Shown here: positions 36,908 through 43,936 of the stretch, piece after piece
Layout of the letters: every line of letters starts with the position of its first letter
Position numbering within the stretch: the first letter of the stretch is position 1
From: Pollutimonas nitritireducens
GTDB taxonomy: Bacteria > Pseudomonadota > Gammaproteobacteria > Burkholderiales > Burkholderiaceae_B
Reading direction: 5' to 3'
NCBI RefSeq assembly: GCF_002849615.1
Contig: NZ_PDNV01000002.1
Span: 310,001 to 374,000, forward strand
DNA: 64,000 nt
Position numbers and translations under genes: made by a program
Notes under the pieces: generated by a model
What the model was told of the DNA's origin: nothing
What the model saw: only the letters and a program-made list of their open reading frames with translations
Database searches by the model: none

Positions 36908-37807
36908 GTGGCTTTGTCATCCCTCACTTCCGTCGATACATTCATCGATGCCATCTGGCTGGAGGACGGCCTGGCGCCCAATACCTTGTCGGCCTACCGA
37001 CGCGACCTGACCGCCTTTGCCAAATGGCTGCACGCCAAGAAAAGCAAACAGCTCGATAAGGCGGACGCGGCCGACATACAAGACTGGTTTGCGGCCATCC
37101 ACGCTGCCAGCAAGGCAACGACCGCAAACCGGCGATTGGCGTCGCTGCGACGCTACTACCTTTGGGCGTTGCGCCACGGCGTGGTCGCCAAGGATCCATG
37201 CCTGACGTTGCATGCCGCCAAGCAAGCCGCCCGATTTCCCAAGACGCTGTCGGAGGACCAGGTCGACGCCTTGCTGCAGTCGCCCGATGCGGGCACCACG
37301 CTAGGTCTGCGCGACCGTGCCATGCTGGAAACCCTTTACGCCACCGGGCTGCGGGCCAGCGAACTGATCAGCCTTAACGTATTGGACGTGAGCCTGACAG
37401 AAGGTGTGCTCAGGGTAAACGTCGGCAAAGGCGGGAAGGATCGCCTCGTTCCATTGGGACAAGAAGCGCAATACTGGATCGACCTGTACATCAAGCAGGC
37501 ACGCCCCCAGTTGCTGGGTGCACGGCGCGACGACGCCTTGTTCGTGACCGCCCGGTCAGGCGCCATGACGCGCCAGGCGTTCTGGCTGATCGTCAAGAAA
37601 TATGCCCTTCAGGCAGACATCCACGCTCCGCTTTCGCCACATGTCGTCAGGCATGCGTTCGCGACCCATTTGTTGAATCATGGTGCCGATCTTCGTGTCG
37701 TCCAGATGCTGCTGGGCCATGCCGATATTTCCACCACGCAGATATATACTCACGTTGCAAGCGAACGGCTCAAAGCCCTGCACGCCAAACACCACCCCCG
37801 TGCCTGA
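36908..37807 (+). CDS. xerD: Site-specific tyrosine recombinase XerD
   Basis: XerD with XerC resolves chromosome dimers at dif near the septum. The 299-residue product, from a GTG start, has the SAM-like N-terminal core-binding domain (FIDAIWLEDGLAPNTLSAYRRDL). The catalytic set is Arg in GLRASEL, Lys in GKGGKDRL, His-x-x-Arg in SPHVVRH, His in LGHADISTTQIYTH and the Tyr nucleophile in that same block. Length matches housekeeping XerD (298). It is not the integrase of the nearby island, which starts 560 bases further on. Confidence 0.95.
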   Translation: MALSSLTSVDTFIDAIWLEDGLAPNTLSAYRRDLTAFAKWLHAKKSKQLDKADAADIQDWFAAIHAASKATTANRRLASLRRYYLWALRHGVVAKDPCLTLHAAKQAARFPKTLSEDQVDALLQSPDAGTTLGLRDRAMLETLYATGLRASELISLNVLDVSLTEGVLRVNVGKGGKDRLVPLGQEAQYWIDLYIKQARPQLLGARRDDALFVTARSGAMTRQAFWLIVKKYALQADIHAPLSPHVVRHAFATHLLNHGADLRVVQMLLGHADISTTQIYTHVASERLKALHAKHHPRA

Positions 37808-37858: not shown

Positions 37859-38353
37859 ATGGCAAAAGACAAACATGTTTCGGAAACGCCCGCGACGCAG
37901 TTCTTGAAGAAGCACCGCGTGGCGTACAGCGAACATTCATACGACTATATCGACCACGGCGGCGCCACTGAAGCCGCAAAGCAACTTGACCTGGATTTGC
38001 ACCAGGTGGCAAAGACATTGATCATGGAAGACGAGGATGCGCAGCCGTTAATGGTCATCATGCATGGAGACCGTGAAGTCTCCACCAAGAACCTGGCTCG
38101 TCAGACGGCAGCAAAAAAAGTAAGCCCCTGCACTCCTGACACGGCACAGAAACACTCCGGTTATCTGGTGGGTGGGACATCACCCTTTGCGACACGTAAA
38201 AAAATGCCGGTCTGGATAGAGGCCGGGCTTCTCAACTATCCGCTCATTTACGTAAACGGAGGCCGGCGAGGCTATCTAATAGGTGTGGAGCCATCGGCGC
38301 TGGCGTCCTTGCTGGACGCGAAACCGGTAAATGTAGGTCTGACCAAGAGCTGA
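37859..38353 (+). CDS. ybaK: Cys-tRNA(Pro)/Cys-tRNA(Cys) deacylase YbaK
   Basis: YbaK hydrolyses Cys-tRNA(Pro) mischarged by prolyl-tRNA synthetase. The 164-residue product has the YbaK/EbsC fold: TPATQFLKKHRVAYSEHSYD at the start, AAKQLDLDLHQVAKTLI with the catalytic-site lysine, and GGTSPFATRKKMPV. Length is standard. Its stop lies 16 bases before the tRNA-derived direct repeat that marks the left edge of the genomic island. Confidence 0.93.
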   Translation: MAKDKHVSETPATQFLKKHRVAYSEHSYDYIDHGGATEAAKQLDLDLHQVAKTLIMEDEDAQPLMVIMHGDREVSTKNLARQTAAKKVSPCTPDTAQKHSGYLVGGTSPFATRKKMPVWIEAGLLNYPLIYVNGGRRGYLIGVEPSALASLLDAKPVNVGLTKS

Positions 38354-38368: not shown

Positions 38369-38383
38369 TGGCGTCTCCAGCAG
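38369..38383 (+). repeat. Displaced tRNA-Arg 3' end, left direct repeat (att site)
   Basis: TGGCGTCTCCAGCAG is identical to 43862-43876, the last 15 nt of the tRNA-Arg(CCT) gene (part of the T-stem, acceptor strand, discriminator and CCA). Weaker identity continues into the T-loop (AACGAAC-TG against TCGAACCTG). It is on the same strand, so a direct repeat, as left by tyrosine-integrase insertion into a tRNA 3' end. Confidence 0.8.
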
Positions 38384-38441
38384 AGAACGAACTGATGTCT
38401 ACAGAGGCGCATTAATAAAGAATCTAGCACTAGGTAGTCCC

Positions 38442-40868
38442 TCATGCCGTTCGCGGCCGCCTGCCTTCACGCCTCTTTCTATCCTCTTCGATCTCACGTT
38501 CCCTCTTGTCCTCTTTACTTTCTTCGTAAGGATATTTCTCCGCTGGCAGCAGCCAATCCATCAGCTTCTTCACTAGCGGAGGCATGGAAGGAGTAGGCGG
38601 CGGGTCCACATAGTAATTGTCCCAGCCTACATCTTTCGTGATCTCGGCTTCAAGCTTCTCAGCTTCCTTCCACAGCTTCTTCCCATCCACGGTTTCACAC
38701 TTAAGATTGACCAACTCAGTATAAGGTTCACTCCAGTCATACCACTCTGTCAGCCTGCGGATGATATCCCTAAAATCCCGAGTCGGCATAACGTAGGGGA
38801 ACCTGTAGTTGCTTCTCGCAAACAGCGACATCAGGCCCAGCGCCTCCAGCTTGGCGGTATATGCGGGCACTAGGGCCTTCTTTTTGTCATTGGCCGCCAG
38901 CTTTTCGATCAAACGCTCCATCCGGCGATGCGCGCGTTCCAAACCTTTGATCGGGTTGAGCGAAGCCGTGGCAAGCCCCAGCGCTTGATCATGCGAGACC
39001 CAGTTCACCTTCTTCTGGTCTTTTGGATTATGCTGCTTTTCCGCGCGTGAATACGCGACGCCAGTACGCAAGTTCAGGGGTTGCCCGCCATACGTTGCCT
39101 GTCTTATTTCATCGATGATGGTACACACGAACATAGAATAGACGGGGTGTGCGGATACGAAAATCTCATCGCCACCCAGCATGACCGTAACACTGCTTTC
39201 AAAGAGCTGAGGTCGATCCAAATCGGCCCCCCGCCCATGAAACGCCTTGCGAGCGGCGTCGAACGCATCGCCGCCAGTAGTCAGAGGGAAGTATTTTCTA
39301 AACGTGTCGACAACCTTGTCATAGGTGACACGCTTACGCTGATTAATGAGATCCGACGAGGCAAATGTCTCTTCCATCAGAGCAACGCCCTCATATCGCT
39401 GTACCTCTATCTCGCCAATGAACCAGTCGTATAGAAGCGCAATCTGAACCCCGAGATCGCGGATGTCCATGGAAAATAAAATCTGGGCCGTATAGTCTGA
39501 TGAATGGGCATAGAAGCCGAACTCGGACGCACGGCCCTGCACCGGCAGCACGCGCGACCCCTGCCTGAAATCTCTGGTCAGCACCTGACCAAGTCGGTCC
39601 CATTTGATGCTTGATACCTCATTGCTGACCTCGTCAAGCGCCGCAAGCGCCTTTGCGTGATAATCCTCCACCCCGCCCGAACCCTTTTTCCTGAACTCGG
39701 ACACAAGAAAGTCTTTGACCAGATCAAGCGCGTTAACCGCAACCAGCCAAATTTCTATCAGATCAATCTGGGTCTTGACCGTGCCCTTGGATTTGAGTCC
39801 GGCCTTGCGGGTGGGAATCTTTATGGCTTTCTTGCGTGCATCCCGAATGACATCGGGGTTCATTACAAAAACGCGCCGGCGATACTCGTAGAGCACCACC
39901 GTCCATACCTTGTCGATCCAGATGTGCAGATATTCGGCCTTCTCACGAATCAAGTCGTTGATGTCGCCGGCCTTCTTGATGACCTTGATGAAACCGCCAT
40001 GGTCGTACTCTTTTCCCCGCCGATCGTCCCGCGCAGCGTCCGGTTTCAGCACGCCCGCCGCCATCCTGCGTCCAGCGCGCGTATTCGCACCGTCCGCTTT
40101 CGCCATGAATCGCGCCATGCCAGCAGCCTTCAATGCCTCGGTAAGGATGAGGAACGTCGCTTCCAAAGGATTCTTTATGGCAAAGTTGAGCGTACGCACA
40201 CCAAACAGGAAATCGAATCGGTATCCCTTCTTCTGCAGTTTCTCTTTCAAATCGGCAATCGCCTTAAGCCGCTCTTTATCGCCATCCTTTTTGGCTTCGT
40301 CTTCGGCCTGCGGCAATAAGGCCAGCAAGCACTTGGCCAGCTCCTCGTCGAGCTTGATGAGCGTATCTGCAAAGTCTCGGCGCGTCTTGCCGATGCCGAT
40401 TATCTGAGCTGTCTTATAGTCGAGCCCGACGGTAGCAAACTTTGGCGGCGGGCCGGATTTGGTAAAAAGTTTGGTGATCGCATCCTGACGACACTTTATG
40501 AAAAGGTTGTTGAGGTGATAGCGAAGGATCTTGTCGTTGAGATCCTTGATCCCCGTGTTGTCTTTCGCCTCACCGGGAAAAACGATGACGTACAAACTGA
40601 CTTTCTGAGCGTTCTGTCCTTTAAGCAGCGTGGCTTGTTGGTAGAGGCGCAGCGTAGGCAGTTGTCGCTCTAACGCCGTCTCCAGGAAGACTCTGTCCGC
40701 GCCTTTTGGCCGCCCTTCGTCGCGCAACAGGATACGCAGGCGCTCCGATTCCTCCCAGACCGACGATAACTCGCCGTCGCGATAGCTGGCATAGCGGGGA
40801 TCGGCTTCGACATGACCGTAAAGAAAGCTGTCCGCACTACGCCCGTTAGATTCGGTGCCATAGCCCAT
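38442..40868 (-). CDS. Unknown large protein with a GGDE palm-like region (island gene 2)
   Basis: The 808-residue protein is not one I can name. Start ATG 40868 follows GGTGA and lies 13 bases after the stop of island gene 1; an ATG at 40940 would overlap that gene. Residues 1-300 are mixed helical and charged, with no signal peptide or membrane segment. Near residues 463-480 a hydrophobic strand leads into MDIRDLGVQIALLYDW. At 565-568 GGDE follows a strand (VTVML). It is followed by IFVSA, a helix, then LNLRTGVAYSRA and a helix-rich Lys/Arg segment. That order resembles the palm of GGDEF cyclases and Cas10. The tail is very basic and acidic (KEDKREREIEEDRKRREGRR). Nucleotide polymerase or cyclase activity is inference. 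Confidence 0.8.
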   Translation of the reverse strand: MGYGTESNGRSADSFLYGHVEADPRYASYRDGELSSVWEESERLRILLRDEGRPKGADRVFLETALERQLPTLRLYQQATLLKGQNAQKVSLYVIVFPGEAKDNTGIKDLNDKILRYHLNNLFIKCRQDAITKLFTKSGPPPKFATVGLDYKTAQIIGIGKTRRDFADTLIKLDEELAKCLLALLPQAEDEAKKDGDKERLKAIADLKEKLQKKGYRFDFLFGVRTLNFAIKNPLEATFLILTEALKAAGMARFMAKADGANTRAGRRMAAGVLKPDAARDDRRGKEYDHGGFIKVIKKAGDINDLIREKAEYLHIWIDKVWTVVLYEYRRRVFVMNPDVIRDARKKAIKIPTRKAGLKSKGTVKTQIDLIEIWLVAVNALDLVKDFLVSEFRKKGSGGVEDYHAKALAALDEVSNEVSSIKWDRLGQVLTRDFRQGSRVLPVQGRASEFGFYAHSSDYTAQILFSMDIRDLGVQIALLYDWFIGEIEVQRYEGVALMEETFASSDLINQRKRVTYDKVVDTFRKYFPLTTGGDAFDAARKAFHGRGADLDRPQLFESSVTVMLGGDEIFVSAHPVYSMFVCTIIDEIRQATYGGQPLNLRTGVAYSRAEKQHNPKDQKKVNWVSHDQALGLATASLNPIKGLERAHRRMERLIEKLAANDKKKALVPAYTAKLEALGLMSLFARSNYRFPYVMPTRDFRDIIRRLTEWYDWSEPYTELVNLKCETVDGKKLWKEAEKLEAEITKDVGWDNYYVDPPPTPSMPPLVKKLMDWLLPAEKYPYEESKEDKREREIEEDRKRREGRRPRTA

Positions 40869-40881
40869 CAATTCACCAAGG

Positions 40882-43482
40882 TCATATCTGTTGCAGTGCT
40901 GGCCTATTGTCCGCCAGGACGACCAGAGTGGTGGGCACATTCACGATCCATGGCAGTCCGAACGGCGTGCTGCCTGCTGCGTAAATGGCGGCCGGATCCG
41001 TCCGACCTTCGTATGGGCGGTCGATCTGCACGGCGTGCGCATCGACGACTTCGGACACGGTATACAGCTCCCCGGCAATATAGAGTTCGCGTCCAACGTC
41101 CGTCTTGCGTTTGGCGCTCCAGTGGCTGTCTGCGTTGATCGCCACGTCAACACTTCCGTTCTGGACGGCAAGCGTGCCGCTACCCCGCGCGACATCGGCT
41201 TTCCGGTCCTGCAATAGCTCAATCCAGACATCACGAAACGGGTTATCGTTGGACGAGGGCGCCACGTCGGGCGGGGGCGTCAGAATGCGTGTCAGTTCAT
41301 CCGCGTTATTCTCGGGATCGAGATAAGCGAGAACCTTGCTTTCATAGCCCGGCGTCACAGGCACGATCACGCGCGCCGCGCCAGCCTCCAGGAACGACTG
41401 TAGCTGCGGATCGACGGCGCTCGCCTCTGTCCGCAACCGCCACGATGCCCGCCGCGCCCAATGATAGGGGTAAAGAAAATAGACCATTTGCTTCCATTCG
41501 AACGCATCTTCGTAAAAGCGAACGATGGGCGCCTGGGCTTCCGCGTGATGGGGACTCATTTCCTGATGTTCGCCCACCATTTCGATGGCATTGAAATTTT
41601 GCGGGACCGTGCGCATGGACTTGATCGCCCATTTCTGCAGCTCACCGCGTTCTATGCGCCGATTCTCGGCTGACGATCGCTCCGCGATGAAGGGCGCCAC
41701 ACTTAAGTCTTTGTCTTCATCTTTTTCTTGATCCTGTTCCAGCCTCCGTTCGAGCGCCTCGTACCCGGTACGCAAGGCTTCCCACGTCCGCAATCGCCAA
41801 GCGCTTTCAGCCTCTGCGGTTCGTCTGCAGCTCAAGGTCACTTGTACATACATGCAACTGTCCCAGTGCCCGTGGACGCGACCTGAGACTGGAACGCCTT
41901 GAGGCCAGGATACGCCGGCGGGAAGCTGTAGCAGGACGCCGTCGAATGTCGTCACGCGATGTTCTTGGTTCTGCGATTTTCCACCGACGGAAAACGCGAA
42001 ATTAAACTCGCCGCCCGCCTCAAGCGCGCTCCAGGCGACTTTGGCCCATTCGGGTCGATATCCATCCGGAACGTTGATCATCCCGGTGAACTGATCTTCG
42101 GCCCACTGCTCATCGTCTTCGTTCGCGGTCGATACCCAGCCATAGCCGACATTCACATACTGAGCCGGCGGCGGCTCTACATCGAAAGCGGCGTAACGCT
42201 GCGCGAGGCAAAGATAATTATCGAAACGAACGTCCGAGGGAGAAACGTCGAAAGGCGGAAGGCGCTTGCGAACAACGCGCCGATTAGATCTTTCAAGCAA
42301 GGAAACTGCCGGCTCGGGAATATGGAACTCCACCATCATCCGCGTACCGTAATGACGCAGCTCAATGCGCTGGATTTTCTCGACCCACAAATACATACTG
42401 CTGAGCGCCTGCATCTGCTGCGTGTCGCTGATGTTATCGACCGTGTGACGGTTCAGTTCCCGTATCTTCTCGGTTATGGTCAGCCTGCGAAGCTTACGTA
42501 CGCGCTCGAAGGTTCTCTCAACCGCCTTTGAGACGATTTCGCGAGCCGTGGTAACGGTATTGGCACGGGACTCTGAGCTACTCTGCGCAAAGGCCGCATC
42601 CAAACTGGTGTCCACCTGGGTGAGCCCATATTGGCCCGACGTGTTGACGCCGGTGCTGATCGTGAAGTCGCGGCTGATGGTCTCCTGACTCTCGGCCTGC
42701 AATTCATAGCGATCGGTCGATTGGGAGTCCTTCTCGGTTTCTTTTTCGGTAATCGTCTCGGATTCCGTCAGCTCTTCGGTCACAGACGTGCGCTCATGCT
42801 CGCGTAGCTTGGACTCACCCGACATGATGTTCTCGATATGGGCGATCTCGCGCGCCGTATAGCCGACAAGCGACTCGCGCGCCACGACCAGCTCACCCCA
42901 CCCCACTGCCGACACGACCGGCTTCGGTTCGCCGGCCGCCGCCCCCGGCACTGTGGGTAGCCCTTGCGAGAGGTTTTCCTCGATCGCGCGGATCTCCGAG
43001 CAGATATGATTGGCCTCGGTGATATAAGCGCCGATATCCAGTGCAATGACCAAGTCGTCAAAGTCGACGGTGGTTCCCAAGCCTGCCAGCGTTTCCTGGT
43101 ATAGGGCTTTCTGTGGCGCGGTAAGCCTATCCTGGATCAGGCGGTTGAGATGCTCGTTCGGTTTCGTTGCCACGTCGGCAGGCGATCGCGGGCTAGACGC
43201 ACGCAGCGCTTTGGACACCGCCTCGCGATTCTCGACCATGGCGGTCTTCATCACTACACGCTGGAGCGTTTCGATATCCTTAATCTTGCGCGAAAGCTGC
43301 GCGTGGCGCGTCGTGAGATCTTTCAGCTCGCCATCGCGCTGCGCGGCCACAATATTGGCTTGACGCGAGATGATGTCTCTATGGCGCAGCCGCGGATCCG
43401 GTCGATTGGCAGGCTCTCTTTCGTCGTCAGGGGTATTGGACTGCCTTAGGCTGACCAGCCTGAAAAGTTCATTGGCGACCAT
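40882..43482 (-). CDS. Unknown large protein with Glu/Thr-rich belt (island gene 1)
   Basis: The 866-residue protein starts after a near-perfect AAGGAGAT, and no signal peptide or membrane segment is seen. Residues about 40-180 are helical. At about 195-220 comes GWGELVVARESLVGYTAREIAHIEN, described here as a family block. At about 225-265 an almost uninterrupted Glu/Thr/Ser run follows, then a Ser-rich segment. Later blocks are NRHTVDN (about 343), YGTRMMVEFHIPEPA (about 380-394), AFEWKQMVYFLYPYHW (about 656-671), GAARVIVPVTPGYE (about 700) and PWIVNVPTTLV near the end. From memory similar blocks recur in uncharacterised large proteins of other phyla; no function is known to me. It is probably cotranscribed with gene 2. 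Confidence 0.8.
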   Translation of the reverse strand: MVANELFRLVSLRQSNTPDDEREPANRPDPRLRHRDIISRQANIVAAQRDGELKDLTTRHAQLSRKIKDIETLQRVVMKTAMVENREAVSKALRASSPRSPADVATKPNEHLNRLIQDRLTAPQKALYQETLAGLGTTVDFDDLVIALDIGAYITEANHICSEIRAIEENLSQGLPTVPGAAAGEPKPVVSAVGWGELVVARESLVGYTAREIAHIENIMSGESKLREHERTSVTEELTESETITEKETEKDSQSTDRYELQAESQETISRDFTISTGVNTSGQYGLTQVDTSLDAAFAQSSSESRANTVTTAREIVSKAVERTFERVRKLRRLTITEKIRELNRHTVDNISDTQQMQALSSMYLWVEKIQRIELRHYGTRMMVEFHIPEPAVSLLERSNRRVVRKRLPPFDVSPSDVRFDNYLCLAQRYAAFDVEPPPAQYVNVGYGWVSTANEDDEQWAEDQFTGMINVPDGYRPEWAKVAWSALEAGGEFNFAFSVGGKSQNQEHRVTTFDGVLLQLPAGVSWPQGVPVSGRVHGHWDSCMYVQVTLSCRRTAEAESAWRLRTWEALRTGYEALERRLEQDQEKDEDKDLSVAPFIAERSSAENRRIERGELQKWAIKSMRTVPQNFNAIEMVGEHQEMSPHHAEAQAPIVRFYEDAFEWKQMVYFLYPYHWARRASWRLRTEASAVDPQLQSFLEAGAARVIVPVTPGYESKVLAYLDPENNADELTRILTPPPDVAPSSNDNPFRDVWIELLQDRKADVARGSGTLAVQNGSVDVAINADSHWSAKRKTDVGRELYIAGELYTVSEVVDAHAVQIDRPYEGRTDPAAIYAAGSTPFGLPWIVNVPTTLVVLADNRPALQQI

Positions 43483-43527
43483 CGGTATCTCCTTGCGTAT
43501 TTACAGACGACTGGATCCCCCTGCACC

Positions 43528-43564
43528 ATCGTTAAACAATAAACGATCGAAATCTGCGACGCAA
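43528..43564 (-). promoter_or_regulatory. Candidate promoter and operator of the island operon
   Basis: On the minus strand TTGCGT (43564-43559), 17 bases, then TATTGT (43541-43536) can serve as -35 and -10. An inverted repeat ATCGTT-8-AACGAT (43528-43547) covers the -10. The start codon with AAGGAGAT lies about 50 bases on. A dyad over the -10 suggests repression by an unidentified regulator. Confidence 0.4.
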
Positions 43565-43690
43565 GACAAATACCGTATTGGATGTACATTCGAGCGAGCC
43601 CCCGGACAAATTCGCGAAATAAACCTTGGTTCAATCGACACAAAGCGGTAAGAAGCGAGTATTCCTTTTTTTGCCCTAGGGAGGCATATC

Positions 43691-43825
43691 ATGGCGGCCC
43701 TTGTACCAACTGACTGCCAGCGCGCCGAACGTGTTGTCCCGATCCCGGGCGTCGCGTCCCGCTCTTCTCGCTCACGTCCAGGGTCAAGTCCCTGCCTAAG
43801 CAGCCAAGGTCCTGATTGCAGATAA
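43691..43825 (+). CDS. Candidate 44-residue small protein in the island leader
   Basis: An ATG preceded at seven bases by AGGGAGG, one of the strongest ribosome binding sites in the window, opens a 44-codon frame. It encodes a Cys-, Arg-, Pro- and Ser-rich peptide ending PDCR. It is divergent from the island operon. No homology is recognised and the composition is not typical of a folded protein. The frame may be fortuitous, or a leader or toxin-like peptide. Confidence 0.3.
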   Translation: MAALVPTDCQRAERVVPIPGVASRSSRSRPGSSPCLSSQGPDCR

Positions 43826-43827
43826 AA

Positions 43828-43851
43828 AATAGGCGCTCATGGGCGTCTATT
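43828..43851 (-). terminator. Hairpin with T-run downstream of tRNA-Arg
   Basis: AATAGACGC and GCGCCTATT, read leftward, pair with one A-C mismatch around a 6-nt loop and are followed by TTTTATC. It lies 10 bases beyond the tRNA 3' end. On the plus strand the mismatch becomes a G-U pair. It sits on the island side of the repeat, so the tRNA would now use an island-borne terminator. Confidence 0.55.
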
Positions 43852-43861
43852 AACATATCAC

Positions 43862-43876
43862 TGGCGTCTCCAGCAG
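43862..43876 (+). repeat. Right direct repeat within the tRNA-Arg 3' end (att site)
   Basis: TGGCGTCTCCAGCAG, the reverse complement of the last 15 nt of the tRNA including CCA, is identical to 38369-38383. Insertion here leaves the tRNA intact, which is the usual behaviour of tRNA-targeting elements. Confidence 0.8.
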
Positions 43877-43936
43877 GAATCGAACCTGCAATCTTCCCTT
43901 AGGAGGGGAAAGTTATATCCATTTAACTATGGAGAC
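43862..43936 (-). tRNA. tRNA-Arg, anticodon CCT
   Basis: The 75-nt cloverleaf includes an encoded CCA. The acceptor stem GTCTCCA pairs with TGGAGAC. The anticodon stem TTCCC/GGGAA carries loop CTCCTAA, so anticodon CCT reads the rare Arg codon AGG. The T-arm is GCAGG-TTCGATT-CCTGC. It lies between the Bug receptor gene and the island and serves as the insertion target. A perfect TATAAT lies 18 bases upstream of the tRNA 5' end. Confidence 0.96.

Follow-up and report, generated by a model that had tools for sequence, protein, structure and literature searches.

A gene pair inserted at the 3' end of tRNA-Arg(CCT) in Pollutimonas nitritireducens as a candidate modular conflict system

Binary AB toxins with a pore-forming B part, such as iota toxin, combine a constant part with one enzyme. 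Polymorphic toxin systems have been described by Zhang et al. (2012; PMC3482391), whose abstract names standalone toxin-coding cassettes. Here, we describe a gene pair with likenesses to both, found in a stretch of 64,000 nucleotides (nt) from Pollutimonas nitritireducens (RefSeq assembly GCF_002849615.1, contig NZ_PDNV01000002.1, positions 310,001 to 374,000), hereafter called the window. Two coupled genes on the minus strand, gene A (40882..43482; 866 amino acids, aa) and, 13 bases further on, gene B (38442..40868; 808 aa), lie between two copies of the 3' end of a tRNA gene. We judge the chances to be about even that they form a two-gene operon of a modular, polymorphic-toxin-like conflict system, in which A, a member of a conserved family, would serve as the carrier and B, an orphan protein, as an interchangeable effector.

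The 15-bp direct repeat TGGCGTCTCCAGCAG is present in two copies in the window, a distal attL-like copy (38369-38383) and a tRNA-proximal attR-like copy (43862-43876). The latter is the 3' end, CCA included, of tRNA-Arg(CCT), the integration target, which was located with ARAGORN on the minus strand at 43862..43936, 5.5 kb from the distal copy. In the whole assembly (4.31 Mb, 38 contigs), the exact 15-mer occurred only at these two sites and a reversed-pattern control gave no occurrence, while shuffles of the window gave a mean of 0.2 matches with up to two mismatches allowed. The original prediction, made from the letters of the DNA, had described just this arrangement of a tRNA-derived repeat around two large coupled genes of 866 and 808 residues, and its coordinates were confirmed. 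The fixed left flank of the site is a gene on the plus strand (37859..38353), conserved in the genus, which we call ybaK-like after the name used in that prediction, without a family search. The remaining open reading frames (ORFs) between the repeats are short or antisense, and none is backed by evidence. The GC content is 55.8% between the repeats as compared with 58.9% in the rest of the window, which proves nothing alone. No integrase-family match was found between the repeats, either in the ORF list or in an integrase search of the genome; the strongest such match in the genome is a flanking gene outside the repeats (36908-37807), and eight others above the cut-off lie elsewhere, without a shown link to the tRNA-Arg(CCT) site. 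The original prediction had the cassette moved by an integrase that acts in trans or has since been lost, which may be so.

A match to ybaK was present in all five genomes of the genus and in 78 of 101 genomes of the family. In one genome of the same genus (G061) the site is empty, with the ybaK stop codon about 20 bp from an intact tRNA-Arg(CCT). This genome is one of four among 30 family ybaK loci in which ybaK lies directly beside tRNA-Arg(CCT); the other 26, the window's own included, had no tRNA within the roughly 1.5 kb of sequence covered, and they are therefore neutral on insertion beyond the genus. Three further genomes of the genus carry other DNA at the site. The closest relative (G087; 90% DNA identity in ybaK) matches the window up to the repeat, has the repeat, and diverges right after it, with genes for HNH and T5orf172 proteins and for an rve-domain transposase; its contig stops short of the tRNA, so that the second end of its insert falls outside the sequence. 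In G028, about 3 kb separate ybaK from the tRNA, and no distal repeat was found in a search allowing up to three mismatches, for which reason this genome was not counted as evidence for the same recombination. In G109 the distance to tRNA-Arg(CCT) is about 12.7 kb, and the last 2.2 kb (L022:12246-14482) hold a zeta-toxin-like gene between two copies of that genome's own variant of the repeat, TGGCGTCTCCTGCAG; no integrase was seen in this 2.2-kb unit. Since the repeat follows the tRNA allele in G109, chance is hard to accept as its explanation. The tRNA-proximal arm (43806..43861) is also common to this genome: window positions 43806-43876 align with L022:12189-12260 in 72 columns (82%) that close with the repeat, and in G109 the matching arm abuts the displaced repeat copy. 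Thus, stretches with different cargo have one end in common. The same hotspot in G109 was also observed to hold a selenocysteine set (selA, selB and tRNA-SeC; L022:1810-6208).

Gene A was matched in one of 151 family genomes, the window's own. We conclude that site-specific recombination placed the cassette 38384-43861 at the 3' end of tRNA-Arg(CCT), and that this 3' end is an insertion hotspot entered by different DNA. The original prediction had called the segment a cargo cassette and had proposed a comparison of the ybaK-tRNA interval among relatives, with empty sites or different cargo as the supporting outcome. Both were found, in the empty ybaK/tRNA-Arg junctions and in the other DNA that follows the same repeat in G087; the opposite outcomes that it had named, the same two genes at this locus in all relatives or a chance repeat, did not occur.

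Neither Pfam, PADLOC, PHROGs nor NCBIfam gave a match to gene A better than E 0.34. Related proteins were found in 13 plasmid records, ranging from Sinorhizobium to the archaeon Natronorubrum, at 25-38% identity (mostly about 25-31%), with 12 of the matches spanning parts of residues 157-722 and one spanning 653-720 only. In a scan of GTDB contigs, 295 related stretches came up, and the 80 best of these were retained. They come from 13 phyla, archaea included, and comprise 30 Actinomycetota, 23 Pseudomonadota, 8 Bacteroidota, 4 Cyanobacteriota, 3 Chloroflexota, two each from Myxococcota, Acidobacteriota and archaea, one each from five other phyla and one unassigned; the ranking was by likeness to a Tsukamurella protein, and the phylum shares are biased accordingly. 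Gene A was present in 7 of 369 genomes sampled from the class and in 7 of 399 from the order, the window's own being in both counts, and its distribution in the sampled genomes is sparse and patchy. It was also found in four IMG/VR viral-contig loci, while 50,697 phage records gave no match at E 1e-5 and a second viral-contig scan, with the Sinorhizobium protein as the query, found nothing. Any tRNA was present in the stretch in only 5 of 54 gene A loci scanned (out of the 80 genome-scan loci), so that the tRNA site looks particular to this window, and tRNA linkage as a general habit of the family was rejected.

An alignment (A3) of 73 of 92 relatives with the window (74 rows) contained 24 invariant columns. 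It omits eight plasmid loci, five loci with a broken or partial A (L011, L058, L069, L089 and L097), two overlong frames (L038 and L094) and four near-duplicates (L036, L047, L048 and L059); the same five broken or partial loci were left out of the 93 used for the gene A tree, which is a quick tree with long branches. An LFR(F/L)-like motif near the N terminus recurs across the family alignments, with the form LFRLVSLR at residues 6-13 of gene A (43444..43467, minus strand) and a family form of roughly [LVI]F[RK][FLM]...R. Open-access keyword searches, which are weak evidence of absence, brought up no paper that we recognised as describing the family. Gene A is a divergent member of a large conserved family for which no name was found. 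About 50 residues of the window's gene A (roughly 722-773) are missing from the other eight rows of a further alignment, A1.

The order of gene A and its neighbor was examined in 93 loci, the window included, with a downstream ORF taken as one of at least 250 aa within 400 nt of A. In 67 of them, an ORF of at least 250 aa started between -120 and 60 nt after A, with a median gap of 12, as compared with 15 of 93 loci in which such an ORF ended at the same distance upstream. The rule misses real partners, for example an annotated 482-aa gene just after A in L007, and some doubtful calls, L009, L027, L038 (maltokinase-like and probably a neighbor) and L071 among them, stayed in the counts. The 77 downstream ORFs fell into 27 clusters by loose BLAST linkage and 32 by strict linkage, and no confident link between partner clusters was obtained with hhalign, in which the best probability was 9.1% and many clusters consisted of one or two rows. 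With the strict clusters (58 rows, 15 multi-member types), the partner type changed at least 26 times on the gene A tree, against a minimum of 14, and 44-48 changes were counted in the first ten of 50 shuffles of the partner types; with the loose clusters, there were 25 changes. The observed changes lie above the minimum and below the shuffles; hence, partners are inherited to a degree, yet swapped often.

Every one of the 27 loose clusters was represented among the 38 downstream ORFs, out of 77, that were scanned with Pfam. Domains above the curated cut-off were found in seven clusters, namely patatin, M23 peptidase, LodA, protein-arginine deiminase (PAD), phospholipase D (PLD), the PT-TG pre-toxin domain and a maltokinase cap, the last probably belonging to a neighbor gene; PhoD-like and Rv2525c-like matches remained below their cut-offs. 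The LodA cluster comprises L034, L035 and L036, and in L036 the next gene is flavoprotein-like. A strongly hydrophobic 19-residue stretch was present in 21 of the 77 partners, in one of them within the first 60 residues, and the partners are thus not uniformly soluble.

Marks of toxin systems were found in two relatives that adjoin each other on the gene A tree, L013 from the viral-contig set and the Chryseobacterium plasmid L006. In L013, the tail that ends the second gene after A has a metallopeptidase-toxin match, which stays below the cut-off. Three further frames follow that repeat the FGEEVADNALT junction and diverge past it, with small genes interspersed; one of these frames has an ADP-ribosyltransferase domain above the cut-off. 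In L006, 99 residues of the 713-aa partner recur at 90% in a frame of 275 aa, which departs from the partner thereafter. The small interleaved genes of both loci are candidate immunity genes only, with an unproven role. The stretch L013:13619-20657 was seen to be a run of toxin-tail cassettes with one common junction, behind the gene A operon. Just upstream of gene A, both loci have a separate patatin gene (L006:5981-7021 and L013:6592-7629), which in L006 is preceded by an annotated M15 peptidase gene.

The AlphaFold model of gene A has a mean predicted local distance difference test (pLDDT) score of 69. It has a helical N-terminal part, confidently modelled beta strands at about 191-210 and 371-389, a mostly poorly modelled region from about 217 to 360, and a conserved helical or mixed part at residues 556-720. 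A predicted beta-rich domain at residues 442-554 (41821..42159, minus strand; blocks with pLDDT 74-92) gave weak and partial Foldseek matches. Within the poorly modelled region, residues 267-296 (42595..42684, minus strand) form an amphipathic, presumably two-stranded segment, as judged from the period-2 hydrophobic moment; among 74 aligned proteins, the period-2 amphipathicity had z values of 6-19 against within-window shuffles, which are not readable as probabilities since the aligned rows are related. The sequence is of mixed character before this segment and mostly alpha-like after it. The segment would fit, although this is not proof, a hairpin that tips a stalk and inserts into a membrane, of the kind seen in pore-forming proteins. 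Iota-toxin Ib chains were among the non-significant Foldseek matches (E about 0.01), and BFVD gave seven matches at E 0.001, those listed having TMq values of at most 0.11; neither the BFVD nor the PDB results were used as a fold identity of gene A. A crude hydropathy test, made without a signal-peptide predictor, found a strongly hydrophobic stretch within the first 60 residues in none of 88 A proteins. Searches of Pfam, PADLOC, PHROGs and NCBIfam matched no trafficking domain in A or B and recognised no sensor or nucleotide-binding domain in A.

Gene B has 808 aa when read from an in-frame ATG; the start at 40940 given by the ORF lister would yield 832 aa. No usable relative was found in 399 genomes of the order, where, besides gene B itself, there were two short matches interrupted by stops, one with six (E 9.4e-6, 23.6 bits) and the other with a single stop (E 0.005, 16.5 bits), both of which were disregarded. 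It found only itself in 398 genomes of the phylum and nothing in plasmids, phages or viral contigs, and its best matches in the four domain libraries had E values of 0.13-0.15. By eye, a GGDEI motif at residues 565-569 (39162..39176, minus strand), together with SMDIRD at 466 and RTGVAY at 601, resembles a nucleotide-cyclase palm, and is supported by neither hhalign nor Pfam. GGDEF was the profile tried at this motif, and no Cas10 profile was used; the profile, built from 12 GGDEF rows of the same genome, aligned elsewhere, at residues 242-262, with 0.7% probability and a score of 19.5, as compared with 0.1-0.4% and scores of up to 17.8 for 20 shuffled copies of gene B. With no profile match at the motif, a GGDEF-like domain was rejected as evidence and kept as a lead. 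In the PDB, nothing better than E 1.3 matched a 221-residue stretch of gene B; in Pfam, its one match, to the GH94 supersandwich, fell below the cut-off (E 0.018, 15 of 23 bits). A single-sequence structure model of gene B had a mean pLDDT of 35.8 and was not used.

Taken together, the tight order of A and its partner, the exchange of partners and the toxin or enzyme domains in some of them point to a conflict system in which A would bind B and deliver it. In such a system, A and B would be co-produced and then associate; the complex would leave the producer without a signal peptide, through lysis or some export route; A would bind the envelope of the target, oligomerise and insert the amphipathic beta hairpin; and B, presumably with a harmful activity, would enter the target cell and act there. 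More tentatively, the A family as a whole may consist of bacterial and archaeal delivery proteins with exchangeable, separate effectors, built as a stalk with an amphipathic beta tip, dispensing with a signal peptide and a contractile particle, and present here as a minimal tRNA cassette. With similar reserve, their effectors may comprise phospholipases, arginine deiminase, amino-acid oxidase and pre-toxin proteins, as well as the orphan gene B of the window with its 808 aa.

Several observations weigh against the proposed conflict system. All toxin marks come from distant relatives and none from the window, whose gene A sits on a long, badly placed branch and reaches no more than 31% identity with any row. 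Gene B has neither a relative nor a domain, so that its role as an effector is drawn solely from its position, and no immunity gene was seen beside it in the ORF list. The pLDDT is only 31-37 in the proposed membrane segment 267-296, no PDB entry was matched at E 0.001 in a Foldseek search with the gene A model, and no export route for A and B was identified. Among the 93 loci, 16 had no downstream ORF of at least 250 aa by the rule, some of the downstream ORFs are doubtful gene calls, and 20 of the 27 partner clusters had no Pfam domain above the cut-off in the scanned members. A docking code in the N-terminal region of A was rejected, as identity there was not clearly higher between proteins whose partners belong to one class. 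Compared at equal identity in the core, the N-terminal identities for the same versus another class were 15.0 and 16.4%, 15.5 and 18.9%, 28.4 (one pair) and 25.6%, and 36.8 and 35.0%.

The pair may alternatively be an intracellular anti-phage system, in which A would sense infection and switch on the variable effector B, the infected cell being killed or stalled. Patatin and PLD are common defence effectors, and both are among the swappable partners of relatives; a compact operon in a mobile cassette and the sparse distribution (7/369 and 7/399 genomes, the window's own included) would also agree with such a role. We nevertheless regard it as doubtful, as neither A nor B has a PADLOC match, no sensor or nucleotide-binding domain is recognised in A, and several partners (M23, LodA, PT-TG and the ADP-ribosyltransferase cassette) look like enzymes of the envelope or the outside, or like secreted toxins. 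The suggestion of the original prediction that the cargo serves defence or inter-bacterial conflict was thus borne out in part: its island reading stood, inter-bacterial conflict gained indirect support for the cargo through the wider gene A family, and defence found no PADLOC match. It is unlikely that A is a spike, fibre or other part of a virion, tailocin or injection particle that carries effectors. This is what the neighborhoods of some relatives would suggest, with a tail-collar domain above the Pfam cut-off in the gene next to A in L186 and next genes that are collar-like by eye in L183 and L185, as would the four IMG/VR loci and the weak BFVD matches to tail proteins. However, the phage records gave no match at E 1e-5, the TMq values shown do not exceed 0.11, and the contractile-sheath family PF04984 was present in 16 of 48 A-bearing genomes searched, which comprise 7 sampled genomes and 41 from the 80 scan loci, but was not found in the window's genome, the T6SS (type VI secretion system) sheath family not having been searched. 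As PF04984 is missing from the window's genome and from most A-bearing genomes searched, a contractile particle is not required. In the subgroup with the collar-like genes, a sigma-factor-like gene stands upstream of A in L186 and L191 (Pfam), and a further gene of about 210-250 aa was seen to follow in L183, L186 and L191.

The partners with recognised domains are mostly enzymes, which would also suit a chaperone, maturation or scaffold protein acting on diverse enzymes with no part in conflict. LodB is the maturation partner of LodA, and the flavoprotein-like gene after LodA in L036 is LodB-like. Even so, the shared-junction toxin-tail cassettes and the PT-TG domains mark toxin systems, not metabolism, and we consider such a helper role quite improbable. 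Least probable by far is a chance origin of the repeat, with the two genes belonging to the locus in the ordinary way. The repeat is short, at 15 bp, and the gap of about 3 kb in G028 without a distal repeat indicates that the interval can grow otherwise, but the 4.31 Mb contain the repeat exactly twice, the empty junctions and the tracking of the tRNA allele in G109 speak for insertion, and 150 of the 151 family genomes give no match to gene A.

Should A prove to be a shared carrier whose effectors can be swapped, the proposed system would be a large conflict system common to bacteria and archaea, and each gene next to A would be a candidate source of new toxin or enzyme activities. It would further be a test case for proteins that reach other cells without a signal peptide, and the cassette, which occupies a busy tRNA site without an integrase of its own, would illustrate how pairs of this kind spread in a minimal form.

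Among the described systems, LodA/LodB amino-acid oxidase pairs (PMC4417212) resemble the loci L034, L035 and L036 in the LodA partner and L036 in the flavoprotein-like gene, and differ in the gene A that lies just upstream; the word 'upstream' does not occur in the main text of that paper. With the genomic islands that tyrosine integrases form at tRNA genes, the window shares the duplicated tRNA 3' end, the empty sites and the varied cargo, whereas its cassette has no integrase between the repeats. The binary AB toxins are similar in their two-gene pair and in the amphipathic beta segment of A; they are dissimilar in that the fold match of A is non-significant (E about 0.01) with a model that is weak in the relevant region, in that A has no N-terminal hydrophobic segment, and in that the partner enzymes of the A family are far more diverse. 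Compared with polymorphic toxin systems (Zhang et al. 2012), the variable part of the A family is mostly a separate downstream gene, archaea are included, the conserved protein has no recognised trafficking domain, and toxin or pre-toxin domains (PT-TG, ADP-ribosyltransferase) occur in some relatives and not in gene B. The likeness to these systems lies in the A family, not in the window alone: a conserved component is combined with a highly variable toxin or enzyme part, PT-TG is present in relatives, and cassettes with a shared junction follow gene A in L013 and L006.

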